From: Brachybacterium sp. FME24
Lineage (GTDB): Bacteria > Actinomycetota > Actinomycetes > Actinomycetales > Dermabacteraceae
DNA length: 64,000 nucleotides
Assembly (NCBI RefSeq): GCF_014897705.1
Contig: NZ_JABUXV010000006.1
Span: 62,001-126,000, forward strand
Direction: 5' to 3'
Part shown: in pieces, positions 17,161 through 24,414 of the stretch
Numbering within the stretch: position 1 is the stretch's first letter
Layout: each line of letters opens with the position of its first letter
Position numbers and translations under genes: made by a program
The notes under the pieces: generated by a model
Database searches by the model: none
The model's input: the letters and a program-made list of their open reading frames with translations, nothing else
What the model was told of the DNA's origin: nothing

Positions 17161-17586
17161 ATGCGAGCAGTGCTGCAGAAGGTCGACGGCGCCCAGGTCG
17201 AGGTCGACGGCGAGATGATCGGTGCGGTCGAGGGCGAAGGGCTCCTGGCGCTGGTCGGGGTCACCCACGGCGACGGGCCGGAGCAGGTCGCCACGATTGC
17301 TCGCAAGATCTGTGAACTGCGGATCCTCGACGCAGAGCGCTCGGCGCTCGATGTCGGCGCCCAGGTCCTGGTCGTCTCCCAGTTCACGCTGTACGCCGAT
17401 GTCCGCAAGGGACGCAGACCCTCCTGGAGCTCCGCAGCCCCGGCCGCGGTCGCCGAGCCGCTCGTGGAGCAGGTCGTGGTGGCGATCCGCGAGCGCGGCG
17501 TGCACGTCGCCACCGGCAGCTTCGGAGCACACATGCGCGTGGGGCTGGTCAACGACGGACCAGTCACGATCCTCCTCGAAGCCTGA
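17161..17586 (+). CDS. dtd: D-aminoacyl-tRNA deacylase
   Basis: Dtd hydrolyses D-aminoacyl-tRNAs (and Gly-tRNA-Ala) in the cytosol, a translation quality-control step. The 141-residue protein is full length and has the signature [16 protein letters not shown] and the C-terminal LVNDGPVT motif with the cis-Gly-Pro used for chiral selection. It is convergent with the HAD phosphatase, whose stop codon begins at the next base. Confidence 0.96.
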
Positions 17587-18279
17587 TCAGCCCAGCAGCA
17601 TCTCCGTGAGCTCCTGGACCGTGCGCGCGAGCGGCAGACCGGATTCGCTCTCGACCTCCCCGCCGTAGCCCCAGCCCACCAGCACGGCCGGCAGACCGTG
17701 CTCCGCGGCGCCCGCGGCGTCGTGCAGGCGGTCCCCGACCATCACCGCGGGCGGTGCGCCCGCGGTATCGTCCGCGTCCACGCCCACGCCCAGTCGCTCC
17801 AGAACACTCCCGATGACCGCCGCCTTGTCCTCACGGCCGATGGCCCGATCCGTGCCGCCGATCAGGGCGAATTCACGGTCCAGGCCCTGATGGGAGAGCA
17901 GTCGGCGAGCGCTCGACTCGGGCTTGTTCGTCGCGACCGCGACGGTGCGGCCCGCTGAGGTCAGCGCGCTGACCAGGGACGGGATCCCCGCGTAGGGAGC
18001 TGCGGAGAGCAGGCCGTGCTGCTGGTAGTGCGCGGTGTATGCCAGACGCAGCTCCTCGGACCGCTCCGGGCTCAACCCCAGCGTGCCCTGGAACGAATCC
18101 GCCAGCGGTGGGCCGATGAAGGTGCGCAGCACAGAAGCAGGAGGGAGCGGCTCGCCGCACCGGGCGAACGCGTGCGCCAGGCCGTCGAGGATCCCCGGCC
18201 CGGAATCGACGATCGTGCCGTCCAGGTCCAGGAGAACGACGGGGATGTCGGTGAGGCGGGCGCCGTCGTGTGCGGTCAT
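17587..18279 (-). CDS. HAD-superfamily phosphatase (Gph-like)
   Basis: A 230-residue haloacid dehalogenase-like phosphatase. Motif I is [12 protein letters not shown] with the nucleophile and acid Asp pair, motif II is AVATNKP, and motif IV is [13 protein letters not shown]. The cap size and the [13 protein letters not shown] segment fit phosphoglycolate-phosphatase-like subfamily IA enzymes. The exact substrate cannot be read from sequence. The ATG at 18279 follows a TATTGT box (18287-18292, reverse strand) by 7 bases, suggesting a leaderless message divergent from gpmA. Confidence 0.9.
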
Positions 18280-18373
18280 GGGCCAGACAATATCGGCGCG
18301 TCCATCGAGTCTGCGCCATCGCCCGCGAGCGCCTGCCGGATGGGCACGACATGCGCGTCCCAGCGGCCCCGCG

Positions 18374-18379
18374 TACGCT
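18374..18379 (+). promoter_or_regulatory. Putative -10 box of leaderless gpmA
   Basis: TACGCT ends 6 bases before the gpmA ATG at 18386; the interval TGCCCC holds no ribosome binding site. Confidence 0.55.
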
Positions 18380-18385
18380 TGCCCC

Positions 18386-19132
18386 ATGACGTACACACTC
18401 GTGCTGCTCCGCCATGGCGAGAGCGATTGGAATGCAAAGAACCTGTTCACCGGCTGGGTCGACGTGGCCCTGACCGAGAAGGGCCGCCAGGAAGCCCTCG
18501 AAGGAGGCGACCTCCTGAAGGAGGCCGGCATCCTTCCCGATGTCGTGCACACCTCCCTCCAGCGTCGCGCGATCATGACGGCGAACCTCTCCCTGGACAC
18601 CGCGGATCGCCACTGGATCCCCGTCAAGCGCGACTGGCGCCTGAATGAGCGCCACTACGGCGCCCTGCAGGGAATGAACAAGTCCGAGATCCGTGAGAAG
18701 TACGGCGAGGAGAAGTTCATGGCGTGGCGCCGCTCCTACGACACCCCTCCGCCGGAGATCGAGTTCGGGACCGAGTTCAGCCAGGACCAGGACCCGCAGT
18801 ACGCGGACCTCGGCGAGCAGCTGCCCAAGGCCGAGTGCCTCAAGGACGTCGTCGAGCGCTTCCTGCCGTACTGGGAGAAGGGCATCAAGCCCGACCTCGC
18901 CGACGGCAAGGTCGTCCTGGTCGCCGCCCACGGCAACTCGCTGCGCGCGCTGGTGAAGTACCTCGACGGCATCTCCGATGACGCGATCTCCGGGCTGAAC
19001 ATCCCCACCGGCCAGCCGCTGGTGTACGAGCTGGACGAGAGCTTCCAGCCCGTCGAGAAGGGTGGCCGCTACCTCGACCCGGTCGCCGCGAAGGCGGCCG
19101 CCGAAGCCGTCGCCAATCAGGGCAAGAAGTGA
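18386..19132 (+). CDS. gpmA: 2,3-bisphosphoglycerate-dependent phosphoglycerate mutase
   Basis: GpmA interconverts 3- and 2-phosphoglycerate in glycolysis. At 248 residues it is exactly the usual length. [12 protein letters not shown] carries the phosphorylated His, followed by [30 protein letters not shown] and [11 protein letters not shown] with the second His. The C-terminus ends [19 protein letters not shown]. The last 130 bases (19003-19132) recur, 91.5 percent identical and without gaps, at 21743-21872 beyond an AT-richer insertion. The gene is complete and appears functional; its 3' end may be the incoming allele. Confidence 0.97.
19003..19132 (+). repeat. Left copy of 130-bp direct repeat (gpmA 3' end)
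   Basis: Aligns without gaps to 21743-21872 with 11 mismatches in 130 positions, ending at the stop codon of both copies. The two copies flank the AT-richer insertion. The remnant differs from intact GpmA by V to A, L to P, S to D and Y to C; the rest are synonymous or the stop (TGA versus TAA). Confidence 0.92.
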
Positions 19133-19163
19133 TCTGAACTCCCGCGATCAAGTTCACGATAGG

Positions 19164-19196
19164 AAGGCCCGCGACCAAATAGCTCGCGGGCCTTTT
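19164..19196 (+). terminator. Intrinsic terminator after gpmA
   Basis: Perfect 11-bp arms at 19164-19174 and 19184-19194 around a 9-base AT-rich loop, ending in TTTTC. This is the most canonical rho-independent terminator in the window and lies within the inserted DNA. Confidence 0.88.
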
Positions 19197-19370
19197 CGCA
19201 CCCCAAAGAGAATCTTCCTCGCACAACGCCGAGCGCCCATCTCAGGACACCCGACACACCGGGCTCGATCCACACGCACCGTATTCAGGCGATACTAAGC
19301 GCAAGCCCCGCAACGACACAGCGACCGGTCGCCCTACACCATGAAACCGGCACAACCTTGAGGAGACCCC

Positions 19371-21635
19371 ATGCTCGTGGAACTCAATTTAGGCAACCTT
19401 GCCGCATATGACTCCGCAGCGCGCATAGCTGACCTTGCTATCATAAACTTCATTTTTGGATCAAACGGCTCCGGAAAGACGTCAATCACTAAAGCAATTG
19501 ACACTTCCGACGACCAATTGGGGTCAACACTGAAATGGCTTGACCCTGCAGACACTTTTGAAGCATGCATCTATAATCGCGAATACGTCACAAGCATACT
19601 GCACTCCTCGACCACTATTCCTGGAGTGTTCGCCCTCGGCGGCGACTCTGCGCGCGCACTTGAACGGATTGATCAGCTCTCTTCAGAAAATGGCGAGATT
19701 GCGAAAGCAGAAAAGAAGGTCGAAGGCTTAAGGGGATCCCTTTCAGGAACCGACAAGAAACCCGGTCCAGAGACCCGGCTAAACGCCGCCCGCACAACCT
19801 TCGACGAGGATGCATGGAAGGTTCGGCAGTCACTATCGCCACAGATCACGGGTCTATTAACAGGGAGTGTCGGAACGAAAAAGCTTTTCGCCGAAAGGGC
19901 GATACGCGAACTCTCAAGGATTAACCCATCCCCAAAGAGCTCCAGCAAGGTAGACGAAGGCCATCCGTCGAACACCGGCGAGGGTTCCTTCAGAACTTCC
20001 CTTCAAGCGTTAAGTCAAGCAGTTGATGAGCTCGAAAACGATGACACCTCATTGTCCGATGTTGTACCGAGCATTGATTCATGCAAGCTCGAAGATCACC
20101 CCTCCAGAGGGCTAGTCTCGACTCCAATTGTCTCAACGGCGGACACTCCACTGGCGCGCGGACTCCGATCAAATGGGAGTATCGATTGGGCAGTCCAAGG
20201 CGTCGACTATTTAACCGAACACAACGAGTGTCCGATGTGTCTTCGCGAACTCTCCGACCCCCTTCGAGATGCAATACTGGGCCTATCAGATGCTCAATAT
20301 AGTTCCGAACTCGAGCAGTTATCCTCTTTTGAAGAGTTTGCAACTAGAAAGCTCGTCGGTCTCGAGCTGCAAATCCAATCAAGCCGTGCAATATTACCAG
20401 AAACCGTTCAATCATTGGCCGCATTTGAAGCCGTTGAGCGATCTGCCACCGCAATTCGAGAGAAGATTTCAGAGAAACTTCACGCCCCTGCGGCAGCTGT
20501 GGACTTGCCAAATATCGATACAGCAATATCTGCACTCAATGAGATCGTCCGCACGGAGAATAATGCCCGCAATGAGCTTCGCACCAAGCGGGAGTCACAC
20601 AAGGAGACTCGCAGGAAGTACGCTAACGAAGCTTGGGAGCTAATATCTCACGCACTTGCAGGACAAGCGCAGGCCTTTAGTGCTTTGGAAACTGAACTCG
20701 AACAGCAAATCAGCGAACAGCAAGGGCGGATCAATGAAGCGTTGGACTCTGTCGTCGCACTAAAACAAGAACTCTCCGATGCAACAAGCAGTATACGAAC
20801 TCATCGACCATGGATGGATACTGTCAATGAACTTCTTGAGAACGTCGGCTTCAGAACTTTCCGTTTCGACGAATCTGACGTCGTTGAAGGTGCTTACACA
20901 ATCGTTCGAGCCGACGGTTCGGCCGCGAACAATACTTTGAGCGAAGGGGAGCGGACCTTTGTGAGCTTCATGTACTACGTGAGTTCGCTGAGTTCCGTCA
21001 GAGAGGGCGGTGAGGGTCGGAAGCAGATCGCCATAATCGACGACCCCATCGCAAGTCTCGATAGCGATGTCATGTTTGTAGTTTCGGCACTTATTAAGAG
21101 GCTGATGTTAGATATCCACAAGAGTCGCGTTAATGTGGGTCAGCTATTACTCCTCACCCATAATATACACTTCCTAAAAGAGGTCTCGTACGCCCGACGC
21201 GGTGAAGAGTCTGCCGAGCGAGCTTTCTACGTTCTCAATAAGACTTCCACAGGAACCAAGGTGTCCGCGCGCGGACATTCCAATCCGGTAGAGGTGGAGT
21301 ACGTTCGTCTCTGGAGGCAAATTGGCAACTGGCGTGACTCACACGACTCTAATACCGGATTGCAGAATGCAATGCGCCGCGTTATCGAATTCTACTTTCA
21401 GACCATCGGCAGGGTTGATGAGAGGTCGCTCCTTGCGGGATTCTCGGGCGATGAAGCAATCGTCGCCAAGTCCTTTTTTAGCTGGATAAACGAGGGTTCC
21501 CATTCGCTTTTCGATGGCCTGCATTTCGCCCCGACTTCAGCAACTCCGGACCAGTACTTCAAGGTGTTCGAAGAAGTCTTTGACAAATCCGGACACAGGG
21601 GACACTTCGCAATGATGTCTGCGGATTGGAGCTGA
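19371..21635 (+). CDS. RloC-like AAA_13/ABC ATPase, probable anticodon nuclease
   Basis: A 754-residue protein. Walker A GSNGSGKTS is at 30-38, a zinc-hook-like CPMC (C287, C290) sits between coiled-coil stretches (roughly 310-370 and 390-475), the ABC signature LSEGER is at 523-528, Walker B and D-loop IAIIDDPIASLDSD at 553-566, and a switch His597 in LLTHN. After the ATPase half, R669-x3-E673 and N707-x3-H711 (SWINEGSH) match in kind and order the Arg-x3-Glu...His triad of PrrC and RloC anticodon nucleases. RloC combines exactly these parts: Rad50-like zinc-hook ATPase and tRNA wobble-base excision as phage defence. The start has a strong GAGGAG site. Codon use is foreign and no partner gene is present. 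A non-nuclease AAA_13 ATPase remains possible. Confidence 0.8.
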   Translation: MLVELNLGNLAAYDSAARIADLAIINFIFGSNGSGKTSITKAIDTSDDQLGSTLKWLDPADTFEACIYNREYVTSILHSSTTIPGVFALGGDSARALERIDQLSSENGEIAKAEKKVEGLRGSLSGTDKKPGPETRLNAARTTFDEDAWKVRQSLSPQITGLLTGSVGTKKLFAERAIRELSRINPSPKSSSKVDEGHPSNTGEGSFRTSLQALSQAVDELENDDTSLSDVVPSIDSCKLEDHPSRGLVSTPIVSTADTPLARGLRSNGSIDWAVQGVDYLTEHNECPMCLRELSDPLRDAILGLSDAQYSSELEQLSSFEEFATRKLVGLELQIQSSRAILPETVQSLAAFEAVERSATAIREKISEKLHAPAAAVDLPNIDTAISALNEIVRTENNARNELRTKRESHKETRRKYANEAWELISHALAGQAQAFSALETELEQQISEQQGRINEALDSVVALKQELSDATSSIRTHRPWMDTVNELLENVGFRTFRFDESDVVEGAYTIVRADGSAANNTLSEGERTFVSFMYYVSSLSSVREGGEGRKQIAIIDDPIASLDSDVMFVVSALIKRLMLDIHKSRVNVGQLLLLTHNIHFLKEVSYARRGEESAERAFYVLNKTSTGTKVSARGHSNPVEVEYVRLWRQIGNWRDSHDSNTGLQNAMRRVIEFYFQTIGRVDERSLLAGFSGDEAIVAKSFFSWINEGSHSLFDGLHFAPTSATPDQYFKVFEEVFDKSGHRGHFAMMSADWS

Positions 21636-21742
21636 TATTTCTCGTCACTCTCAGCCCGATCTACACAACAGTACGTTCATCATTTGAATGCTTGCATTAA
21701 CCCTTCAGTGGTGTCTAAAATTTCCCATAGGGTTATTGTTGG
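21636..21742. other. Right end of insertion with short inverted repeat
   Basis: AT-rich DNA between the ATPase stop and the gpmA remnant. TAACCCT (21698-21704) and AGGGTTA (21729-21735) form a 7-bp inverted repeat with a 24-base loop just before the junction. No gene is seen. Confidence 0.5.
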
Positions 21743-21872
21743 CCCCACCGGCCAGCCGCTGGCGTACGAGCCGGACGAGGACTTCCAGCCCGTCGAGAAG
21801 GGTGGCCGCTGCCTCGACCCGGTCGCTGCGAAGGCCGCCGCCGAGGCCGTCGCGAACCAGGGCAAGAAGTAA
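21743..21872 (+). pseudogene. Remnant of gpmA 3' end (right copy of direct repeat)
   Basis: Reads in frame as the last 42 residues of GpmA plus a TAA stop, with four amino-acid changes relative to intact gpmA, two of them drastic (Leu to Pro, Tyr to Cys). It lacks the rest of the gene and any start of its own, so it is a fossil of the displaced 3' end. The hairpin at 21903-21936 that follows is probably the original gpmA terminator. The substitutions suggest the copy has been free of selection for some time, or that the two copies came from different strains. Confidence 0.9.
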
Positions 21873-21902
21873 TCCTCCCCGTTCTCAAGAACCGGTGACC
21901 CT

Positions 21903-21936
21903 ACGGGCTCACGATCTCAGCAGATCGTGGGCCCGT
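21903..21936 (+). terminator. Hairpin downstream of the gpmA remnant
   Basis: Arms 21903-21917 and 21922-21936 pair at 14 of 15 positions (one G-T) around a 4-base loop. Probably the ancestral terminator of gpmA, left on the far side of the insertion. Confidence 0.7.
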
Positions 21937-22158
21937 CGTCCGTCTCCTGTGCGCCGGCCGATGCACACCGGGACGGGTCCGGACGGTTACGGTCGCAGCC
22001 AGGCGGTCCAAGCGGTCCAGGCAGTCCGTGTGGAGGCGGGCCAGGTGACCGATCGGTCTTCCCTTCCGGGCCGCCGTCTCATAGCGTCGTGGTGCCGGTC
22101 ACATCCGGCAGATCCGCAGCACGACGCACCGTGACGACGCACAGGGAAAGGGCTACCA

Positions 22159-22785
22159 ATGACCATCTCCGCACCTGACCGCCGAACTTTCTTCCGCGCT
22201 CTCGGGCTCACCGCAGCCGCCGGGCTCGGCACAGCCGCGCTCGCCCCCGCCGCTACAGCCGCGGGTGAGAAGGTGCTGCCGACGACCTACCGGGAGCAGC
22301 CGAACTTCTTCTACTGCGGGCCCACCGCTGTCTCCATCGCCCTGAGCGCGAAGGTGACGCCGCCGAGCTTGGACACGCTCGCCGCGGAGCTCGGCACCAC
22401 TGACAACGGCACGAACTTCGGCGCCGTCTCCCCCGTGCTCACGAACCGCCTGGCCGGGGCCACCTATCGCGATCAGTGGATGGATGCCTCCACGGCGAGC
22501 ACCACCGATGCGGACCTCCTGTGGGATCGCGCCACCACCAATGTCGACGACGGCTTCGCCACGGTGTGCAACTGGTGGGTGGTCGCCGGGGAGTACCCGA
22601 ACTGGGGCGGGAACACGTCGGACATCTACCATTTCGTGACGATCGACGGGTACGACGCCGACGCCCGCACCCTGCGCGTGGCGGATCCGGCCGGATCGAC
22701 CCTCACCGCGTCCCTCCCGTCCCATCACTGGCTCTCGCCGAAGCAGGTCGCGACGTACTGCGCGGGACGCGGCTACTTCTGGTGA
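22159..22785 (+). CDS. Tat-exported C39-like peptidase family protein
   Basis: A 208-residue secreted protein. A twin-arginine signal (RRTFFRALG, residues 8-16) followed by an Ala-rich hydrophobic stretch is probably cleaved near residue 35. The mature part has the papain-like triad in C39-family order: Cys53 in FYCGPTAVSI, His158 in DIYHFVTIDGYD and Asp176 in RVADPAGS. Cysteine peptidase or amidase activity outside the membrane is likely; the substrate is unknown. A GGAAAGGG ribosome binding site lies 7 bases before the ATG. It is the first normal-GC gene after the insertion. Confidence 0.85.
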   Translation: MTISAPDRRTFFRALGLTAAAGLGTAALAPAATAAGEKVLPTTYREQPNFFYCGPTAVSIALSAKVTPPSLDTLAAELGTTDNGTNFGAVSPVLTNRLAGATYRDQWMDASTASTTDADLLWDRATTNVDDGFATVCNWWVVAGEYPNWGGNTSDIYHFVTIDGYDADARTLRVADPAGSTLTASLPSHHWLSPKQVATYCAGRGYFW

Positions 22786-22788
22786 GCC

Positions 22789-24414
22789 TCAGCGGCGGCG
22801 CTTCGTGCCGAACAGGCCGCGGGTGATCTCGCGCCCCAGCACCGTGCCGGCGGAGCGGATGAACGACTTCACCGCAGGATTGCCGAACAGCCCTGAATCC
22901 TTCGCCTCCGAGCGAGAGGACTTCTTCGTCCCCGAGGACTTCGACGCGGCGGGTGCGTCGGCCGCGCTCCCCTCGGCCTCATCGGCCGCCGCCGCCTCCT
23001 TCTCGGCCCGGGCGGCGAGGATCTCGTAGGCGGACTCGCGATCCACCGGAGTCCCGTACCGCTCGGTCAGCGGTGACGTCTCCACCGCGGCGGAGATGAT
23101 CTCTGTCCCGGCCGGGTCCATGGAGGATTCCGGAGCCCGCACCGCGGTGATCGCGACCGGTGTGGGCGCGCCGTTCTCGCTCATGACGGTCACGATCGCC
23201 TCGCCGGTGCCGAGCGCCGGGATCACCTCGACCAGATCGTGCTCGCTGGTCGGGAAGGTGGAGGCGGTGGCCTTGAGCGCCTTCGCATCATCGGGGGTGA
23301 AGGCGCGCAGCGCATGCTGGACCCGGTTGCCGAGCTGGGCGAGCACGTCGCCGGGGATGTCCTTCGGGGTCTGGGTGATGAAGAAGATGCCCACGCCCTT
23401 GGAGCGGATCAGGCGGACGGTCTGGACCACCTGGTCCAGGAACGCCTTGGAGGCGTCCTTGAACAGCAGGTGCGCCTCGTCGAGGAAGAACACCAGCTTC
23501 GGGACCTCGGCGTCGCCGACCTCCGGGAGATCCTGGTACAGCTCGGCGAGCATCCACATCATGAAGGTGGAGAACAGTGCGGGCCGCGAGGCGACTCCCG
23601 GCAGTTCGAGGCAGGAGATGATCCCGGTGCCGTCCTCGGCTTTGCGCAGCAGCTGCTCGGTATCGAAGGCCGGTTCCCCGAAGAAGACGTCCGCCCCGGA
23701 GGCCTCGAACGAGGACAGGCTGCGAAGGATGACGCCCGCGGTGGAGGTGGAGATGCCGCCGATTCCCTTGAGCTCGTCCTTGCCCTCGTCGGAGGTGAGG
23801 AACTGGATCAGCGCACGCAGATCCTTGAGGTCCAGCAGTCCGAGGCCCTGGGTGTCGGCGTAGTGGAAGATCAGGCCCAGCGAGCTCTCCTGGGTCTCGT
23901 TGAGCTCGAGCACCTTGGCCATCAGCACCGGCCCGAAGTCACTGACCGTGGTCCGGATCGGCACGCCCTCGCCCTGCCCGCCGAGGGTGAAGAACTCGGT
24001 GGGGGCTGCGCGCGAGACCCACTCCTGGCCGCGAGCTGCGGCGCGCGTGGTCAGCTTCTCCGATTCGGCGCCCGGCACGGCGATCCCGGAGAGGTCCCCC
24101 TTCATATCGGCGACGAACACGGAGGCCCCGGCGTGCGCCGCCTGCTCAGCGATGACCTGCAGGGTGCGGGTCTTGCCGGTGCCGGTGGCACCGGCGATCA
24201 GGCCGTGCCGATTCAGCATGCCGACCGCCAGGTTCACGGCGACAGCGGCGTTGGGCTCCTCGCCCTCGAGCAGGGCTCCGAGGTGGATGCGCTGGCCGTC
24301 GAAGGCGTAGGCCTCACGCACCGCGAGAGCCGACTCGCTCAGTTCCGTAGGCGTCACGGTCTCCTGCTCGCTCGCGGCCGGGGCGGGACTCTGCTCGTGA
24401 TCCTGGGTGCTCAT
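22789..24414 (-). CDS. DUF853 / HerA-type ATPase
   Basis: A 541-residue P-loop ATPase of the HerA/FtsK-related DUF853 family. It has Walker A AGATGTGKTR, FVADMKGDLSGIA just after, FDTEQLL in the middle, Walker B KLVFFLDEAHLLF and a downstream FITQTPKDIPGDVLAQLGNRV arginine-finger region. The family is widespread in bacteria and thought to be a DNA translocase-like ATPase, but its role is unsettled. The C-terminal ~100 residues are Ala/Ser/Lys-rich and probably flexible. The ATG at 24414 is preceded by AGGAGGAG. It converges with the peptidase gene 3 bases away. Confidence 0.9.
   Translation of the reverse strand: MSTQDHEQSPAPAASEQETVTPTELSESALAVREAYAFDGQRIHLGALLEGEEPNAAVAVNLAVGMLNRHGLIAGATGTGKTRTLQVIAEQAAHAGASVFVADMKGDLSGIAVPGAESEKLTTRAAARGQEWVSRAAPTEFFTLGGQGEGVPIRTTVSDFGPVLMAKVLELNETQESSLGLIFHYADTQGLGLLDLKDLRALIQFLTSDEGKDELKGIGGISTSTAGVILRSLSSFEASGADVFFGEPAFDTEQLLRKAEDGTGIISCLELPGVASRPALFSTFMMWMLAELYQDLPEVGDAEVPKLVFFLDEAHLLFKDASKAFLDQVVQTVRLIRSKGVGIFFITQTPKDIPGDVLAQLGNRVQHALRAFTPDDAKALKATASTFPTSEHDLVEVIPALGTGEAIVTVMSENGAPTPVAITAVRAPESSMDPAGTEIISAAVETSPLTERYGTPVDRESAYEILAARAEKEAAAADEAEGSAADAPAASKSSGTKKSSRSEAKDSGLFGNPAVKSFIRSAGTVLGREITRGLFGTKRRR

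Follow-up and report, generated by a model that had tools for sequence, protein, structure and literature searches.

The locus behind gpmA in Brachybacterium sp. FME24 raises the question of how a single gene of foreign composition, encoding an RloC-like ATPase of the AAA_13 family, came to lie between an intact gpmA gene and a second copy of the gpmA 3' end. A sequence-only reading of the window, i.e. the whole 64-kb stretch of DNA that was analysed, had described an ungapped 130-base repeat of the gpmA end with 11 mismatches, about 2.6 kb of AT-richer DNA between the copies, and the entry of foreign DNA at the gpmA 3' end with gpmA kept whole. The first was borne out by a repeat search and a mismatch count, the second by GC content, and the third by composition, by the intact gene, and by a close relative in which the site is empty. 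In at least two lineages of Actinomycetota, moreover, the gpmA 3' end serves repeatedly as an insertion or attachment site.

The duplicated gpmA end and its native copy

A direct repeat of 132 nt, ungapped and 92% identical, was found in the window at 19003-19134 and 21743-21874, with 11 mismatches over the 130 nt that make up the gpmA 3' end (19003-19132) and its second copy (21743-21872). Since the second-longest direct-repeat family within 17500-23500 has just 34 nt at 71%, a chance origin of the repeat is excluded. When the 132 nt were used as a query against the 4.8-Mb genome, two matches were obtained at E<=0.001, namely the left and the right copy. The observation of a 130-nt gpmA-end repeat around AT-richer DNA is confirmed. 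The features of the locus are as follows.

18386-19132, + strand: gpmA, intact, 248 aa (NCBIfam NF010718 phosphoglyceromutase, 443 bits)
19003-19132, + strand: left repeat copy, the working gpmA 3' end, probably insert-borne (repeat and copy comparison)
19119-19132, + strand: AGGGCAAGAAGTGA, the same 14 nt as the direct repeat of the B. massiliense element (sequence identity)
19133-19370, no strand: left spacer, GC 0.605, starting with TCTGAACTCCCGCG, somewhat like the gpmA downstream starts in other Brachybacterium
19371-21635, + strand: AAA_13 / PDC-S06 ATPase, 754 aa, with RloC hallmarks (profiles, motifs)
21636-21742, no strand: right spacer, GC 0.41 (composition)
21743-21872, + strand: right copy, likely to be the original gpmA 3' end moved from its place and in decay, without a gene body (repeat, alignment)
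21873-22158, no strand: the region natively downstream of gpmA, collinear with that of B. tyrofermentans (G036) except for a 63-nt stretch, and holding a GATCTCAGCAGATC hairpin

In 500-base windows, the GC content is 0.65-0.75 on the flanks and 0.49-0.54 in the approximately 2.6 kb between the left and right copies. The single long open reading frame (ORF) in this interval, that of the AAA_13 ATPase, has a GC of 0.512 and a third-position GC (GC3) of 0.535, as against a GC3 of 0.916 in gpmA, and the insert is thus foreign in composition. The lack of an integrase, also pointed out from the letters alone, was upheld by 30 integrase queries, none of which had a match in the 64-kb window at E<=0.01; the insert holds no convincing integrase scrap (best E 0.067), and neither RepSA nor FtsK/TraB genes were found beside its one long ORF. 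A tRNA-borne insertion was considered and rejected, as there is no tRNA in the window nor in the gpmA loci L175, L183, L199, and L248.

If the ATPase gene were an old resident, it might stand at this site in all relatives, as the sequence-only reading had allowed. Among the 38 Brachybacterium genomes of the genus panel (gpmA match in 35), ATPase relatives are present in two: the window's own at gpmA, and one elsewhere in G011 with 31% identity. The expected empty site is found in B. tyrofermentans (G036), which has a single gpmA end without an insert; its gpmA stop is followed by 223 bp, a C39 gene (96% identical in amino acids), and HerA (86%). From the right copy through the intergenic region to C39, the window is 90-97% identical to G036 per 100 nt, save for a 63-nt stretch that is absent in G036, and past C39 the identity is lower and more variable. 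Therefore, the right copy is probably native, since B. tyrofermentans has an empty site and the right copy is continuous with the same downstream region.

The differences between the copies fall into two groups. Four of the 11 are changes of the right copy, all of them transitions. Three of these (V>A, L>P, and Y>C) strike second codon positions that are invariant in 34/34 other Brachybacterium genomes, and therefore the right copy is under constraint no longer; the fourth state (position 84) is present in one of the 34. The remaining seven are differences between the left copy and G036, with which the right copy is identical there. The description of the right copy as a fossil with drastic residue changes thus holds for its missing gene body and for the three replacements, but not for the majority of the differences. 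If its own four changes are disregarded, the right copy differs from G036 at 1/127 positions and the left copy at 7/127, whereas the gpmA-end distance to G036 is no smaller than 3/127 for 30 other genomes; G025, G019, and G030, with gpmA ends that are shifted or cut, are left out of these counts. On the left side, the TGA is followed by TCTGAACTCCCGCG, which resembles the gpmA downstream starts of other species with a mean score reached by 6/500 shuffles; the likeness is less clear in another test, where the best score was reached by 97/1000 shuffles. Taken together, the comparison of the copies suggests, with moderate confidence, that the right copy is the displaced original gpmA end, now decaying, and that the left copy came with the insert. 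The same moderate confidence applies to the direction of displacement.

Two observations concern the downstream region itself. The 63-nt stretch (about 21974-22036 of the window), which lies between gpmA and C39 and is absent from B. tyrofermentans, contains short internal repeats of the GCGGTCCA type. The C39 peptidase and HerA genes (22159-24414 of the window) come and go across Brachybacterium; HerA was not found in the 11.7-kb locus of G021, G009, G001, and others.

The gpmA 3' end in other genomes

The gpmA C-terminus had a match in 44 of the 47 genomes of the family panel, and the downstream DNA was examined for all 44, to the contig limits. Other cargo at the same place, which the sequence-only reading had looked for in sister strains, occurs in several members. 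In B. massiliense mt5 (G014, L041, L175), a tyrosine integrase gene stands directly after gpmA in a 10.2-kb element (L041:1748-11961), which also carries DUF3631 and PIN genes. Two copies of a 14-nt direct repeat, AGGGCAAGAAGTGA, lie 10.2 kb apart, and the second copy is followed by a terminator-like hairpin and HerA. Integrases 60-64% identical to this one are found elsewhere in G033, G036, G028, and G037, and a search of viral_contigs found no relative of it. In B. squillarum (G033), a 3-kb cassette with a GC of 0.50-0.56 lies behind gpmA and holds sce7726, sce7725, and RES-domain genes (L048:1943-4775, in gpmA orientation); this AT-rich cassette is a candidate defence cassette. Two species of one genus (G045 and G046; L153 and L154) have differing low-GC inserts (0.41-0.47) between gpmA and HerA, the ORFs of which look like glycosyltransferases. 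The site holds about 6 kb of normal-GC genes in G040 and a masked stretch in G041.

The low-GC DNA is placed at the gene end with some regularity. Five of 43 family loci (the window, G033, G044, G045, and G046; 399 blocks, the short locus L049 being left out) contain 1-kb blocks whose GC lies over 8 points under the median of the locus, and every run of them starts at the gpmA stop. Among 80 named loci (653 blocks), low blocks are present in four; those of B. squillarum and Streptomyces sp. BV286 are at the stop, while those of B. massiliense (inside the element) and S. daqingensis are 8 kb away. For 51 loci belonging to other families of the order, 17 integrase queries gave no match (E<=1e-6); two of the 60 loci fetched contain N.

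Of 313 named gpmA loci, the best 80 were examined for downstream integrases, and two of these have one: B. massiliense and Streptomyces sp. H27-C3 (L199). In the latter, the integrase is 516 bp past gpmA and an exact 18-nt repeat, CCAGGGCAAGAAGAAGTA, is found 4.7 kb apart. The 18-nt gpmA end is present in 297 of 392 Streptomyces genomes, with at least two same-strand copies in 53 and one per strand in 8 (hand count), and the reversed 18-mer, used as a control, gave 0 in every row. Coordinates were listed for 27 of the 53. Twenty have a same-contig pair 2.2-19.9 kb apart and were fetched (L282-L301), and in the other seven the copies are on other contigs or megabases apart. The first core copy is the end of gpmA in all 19 loci whose piece included gpmA (L290 was trimmed). 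The exact repeats measure 18-40 nt, the lower bound being set by the 18-nt sequence used in the search. Upstream of the core, the adjoining 100 nt are unrepeated (27-39% identity) in all 20 elements that could be measured, i.e. 19 fetched ones and L199. L283 has three cores in tandem.

Twelve of the 20 fetched elements have an integrase match. The integrase ORFs of L285, L287, L288, L292, L293, and L294 match each other over at least 400 residues, and those of L282, L284, L290, L295, L297, and L299 match over shorter stretches, L297 having fragments only. The full Streptomyces integrases are 65-95% identical among themselves and 24-27% identical to that of B. massiliense. Integrase scraps alone, with the core repeats kept, are left in L286 and L300, and no integrase match was found in L283, L289, L291, L296, L298, and L301. 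Two large elements were partly scanned. Since both encode FtsK/SpoIIIE, and L293 also encodes an integrase, a GntR regulator, and the C-terminal half of RepSA, we call them putative actinomycete integrative and conjugative elements (AICE-type), at least one of which is possibly decaying; AICE accretion and decay at one site have been described (PMC9513070). As for cargo, four of ten chosen proteins from integrase-poor elements match PADLOC and six do not. The matches are Shedu SduA (L283), a TIR protein (L300), PDC-S32 (L291), and an NB-ARC/TPR protein through a generic TPR model (L301). Of seven proteins encoded in L292 and L293, PADLOC matches were obtained for two, a capP-type protein and a CBASS-effector-type nuclease domain.

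The suggestion that the gpmA 3' end could be an attachment locus is thus borne out by elements at the same gene end in B. massiliense and Streptomyces. Mobile elements in two distant actinobacterial lineages, whose integrases are only 24-27% identical, appear to have attached repeatedly at the end of a protein-coding gene, gpmA, some of them carrying defence-type genes, and this gene end becomes a defined place to seek new defence systems and attachment sites. Within it, the stretch AGGGCAAGAAG is a putative integrase recombination site.

The cargo and the origin of the insert

The 754-aa protein matches PF13166 AAA_13 with 346 bits, and its best PADLOC match is PDC-S06 (522.6 bits, residues 1-751), the best differently named family being LmuB (51.8 bits). 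RloC is characterised in PMC2610378 by the motifs of an ABC ATPase, by a zinc hook of the CxxC type, and by Arg-X3-Glu-X36-52-His. The window protein has the ABC ATPase features of RloC, i.e. Walker A, signature, Walker B, and switch His (Walker A from residue 30, LSEGE at 523-527, IIDDPIASLD from 555, and LTHN from 595), a CxxC zinc-hook motif (CPMC 287-290, with C287 and C290), and a candidate triad, R669-x3-E673-x37-H711, with S710 before the His, which falls within the RloC spacing. In an alignment of ten sequences (the window, six from the order panel, and three chosen plasmid or phage relatives), CPxC, LSEGE, and R669 are invariant in 10/10, and E673 and S710-H711 are present in 9/10. 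The window ATPase is 27-32% identical to the six relatives from the order panel, and in one homologue, on an Acinetobacter plasmid, a tyrosine integrase lies upstream. In a simulation at the mutational load of the fossil (4/130), a free ORF of the length of the ATPase gained 2.6 stops on average and stayed open in 8%; the open 754-aa ORF is thus a mild sign of retention. From family and motifs, the cargo is predicted most likely to work as an RloC-type abortive-infection (anti-phage) gene.

For the origin of the insert, we lean somewhat towards RecA-type (homologous) capture from a relative, because the 130-nt repeat far exceeds the repeats of integrase elements at gpmA and no integrase is present. 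A possible course of events can be described as follows. The incoming DNA would have carried a gpmA 3' end, from another Brachybacterium or from a gpmA-end element, together with a defence gene from an AT-richer source. The incoming end would have recombined with the resident gpmA, and the gene would have stayed whole. With a second joint within the resident gene, the resident last 130 nt would have moved about 2.6 kb downstream, beside their own downstream region, where they then decayed. The capture may have had one homologous and one illegitimate end, or it may have been one crossover of a circle bearing a gpmA end; homology-facilitated illegitimate recombination in bacteria is described in PMC3240628. 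In place, the ABC/Rad50-like ATPase with its zinc hook would sense DNA damage or phage and free a C-terminal tRNA anticodon nuclease, upon which translation would stop. The RecA mechanism, the nuclease activity, and the defence role are all inferred.

Several findings weigh against this account. No donor arrangement was found, and pattern-based ATPase scans of genome_contigs and viral_contigs yielded no relative. The ATPase has matches in 244 plasmid and 9 phage records, all below 60% identity. Apart from the window's own genome, none of the 47 family and 396 order genomes was seen to have a second gpmA end beside gpmA. As to the native copy, the distance of 1/127 is below that of all 164 genome pairs of similar gpmA divergence (minimum 2), the 7/127 of the left copy is a usual value among native ends, and G003, too, is just 2/127 away from the right copy after this correction; therefore, distance alone is no proof of which copy is native. 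As to the cargo, the PrrC profile match is weak (E 1.8e-6, residues 496-730), no solved structure matches the protein by sequence, and the sequence that lacks the Glu and the Ser-His in the alignment is L167, a Streptococcus phage protein and the sole relative annotated RloC.

Matches to the gpmA C-terminus include 2 weak phage records, 23 plasmid records, and, among viral contigs, a single partial one. Thirty further genomes of the order panel have two matches and were considered as carriers of gpmA-end fossils; since in all 30 the second match is on another contig or more than 400 kb off and has an open frame of at least 260 aa, these are paralogues, not fossils.

The alternatives differ in how the two copies were made. 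At icd, elements such as e14 and phage 21 repair the coding gene that they enter: they supply a replacement for its 3' end, and the old end remains on the distal side. By such a site-specific route, an integrase element would have crossed inside gpmA about 130 nt before the stop, supplied the 3' end, and later lost its integrase and other genes. The structure of the locus fits this arrangement of an intact target gene with an incoming 3' end and a displaced end at the far side, given the moderate assignment of the native copy. The first 37 positions of the two copies are identical once the right-copy changes are set aside, and elements at this gene in Streptomyces have lost integrases while retaining the repeats (L286 and L300 have scraps, L297 has fragments, and six gave no match). 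However, in the 22 att-flanked gpmA elements (20 fetched from Streptomyces, L199, and B. massiliense) the repeat is confined to the final codons and the DNA after them, with exact repeats of 14-40 nt, and none crosses at 19003; as the gpmA end was itself the means of finding them, any element with its crossover at another point of the gene would have escaped notice. The best integrase scrap in the insert, moreover, does not go beyond the E value given above. This route is considered unlikely. The island footprint originally proposed stands as regards foreign entry and a fossil end, but the 130-nt repeat, unlike the exact repeats of the 22 elements, agrees no less well with homologous or illegitimate capture than with entry through an integrase.

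A second alternative, which appears doubtful and less probable than the icd-type route, is insertion at the B. massiliense-type core (the last 14 nt) by an element bearing about 112 nt of gpmA at its right end, so that the left copy would be native and the right copy imported. Both window copies hold AGGGCAAGAAGTRA, and the distance of the left copy from G036 is normal for a native end, as this alternative would have it. It needs, on the other hand, an unexplained 112-nt gpmA fragment, of a kind that none of the 20 measured Streptomyces elements has, and wherever the left copy departs from G036 (7 sites), the right copy does not. A third alternative is that the gpmA end was duplicated in tandem on the spot and that foreign DNA then entered between the copies in a separate event. 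It would require no donor gpmA but is very improbable, since the constrained left copy would have 7 changes against 4 in the unconstrained right copy and the composition shifts abruptly near both repeats.

The window adds to the record of this site an aged scar in which a single defence-type gene persists without a recombinase. One wider scheme, advanced tentatively and held to be rather unlikely, is that mobile DNA docks at the gpmA 3' end throughout Actinomycetota, as a conserved site: integrases would deliver first, and the shared end would then allow single defence genes without an integrase to pass from one species to another through homologous recombination. The window would be a fossil of this second mode. 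If true, a gene end would act as a natural recombination handle for the transfer of defence genes between species.

Comparison with known systems

An RloC-like gene, insertion at a gene 3' end, and defence cargo on integrative elements are each of a known kind, whereas the gpmA end as an attachment site common to Brachybacterium and Streptomyces is little-described. In the literature searched, gpmA was not found as an attachment gene, though Table S5 of PMC9513070 covers 14 elements in protein-coding genes and may list it. In PMC4458695, PMC3235134, and PMC5971314, gpmA is cargo; in PMC3516476, a pgm gene adjoins an integrase; and in PMC3218068, PMC9513070, PMC6722414, and PMC4057263, the words 'mutase' and 'gpm' are absent.

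With RloC (PrrC/RloC; Pfam AAA_13; PADLOC PDC-S06), the window protein shares the ABC ATPase motifs, the CxxC, and Arg-X3-Glu-X37-Ser-His. It differs in its low identity to the order-panel relatives and in its scanned neighbours, which are gpmA, C39, and HerA, and its anticodon nuclease activity is predicted. PAISt of Streptomyces turgidiscabies likewise lies at the 3' end of an actinobacterial protein gene, bacA; it differs in its 8-bp palindrome target and in the gene used, and the paper has neither 'gpm' nor 'mutase'. The likeness to e14 and phage 21 at icd would lie in the replacement of the gene end and in the old end placed distally, but the window has no integrase and the mechanism there is putative.

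Other counterparts are at gpmA itself. The B. massiliense mt5 element shares genus, gene end, and the AGGGCAAGAAGTGA core with the window locus, and differs by its tyrosine integrase, its DUF3631 and PIN genes, and its 14-nt repeat. The AICE-type elements and remnants at the gpmA end of Streptomyces have the same target gene end, some of them with defence-type cargo and several without an integrase match; their exact repeats are 18-40 nt long, whereas the repeat of the window is 130 nt and encloses an insert without an integrase, RepSA, or FtsK gene.

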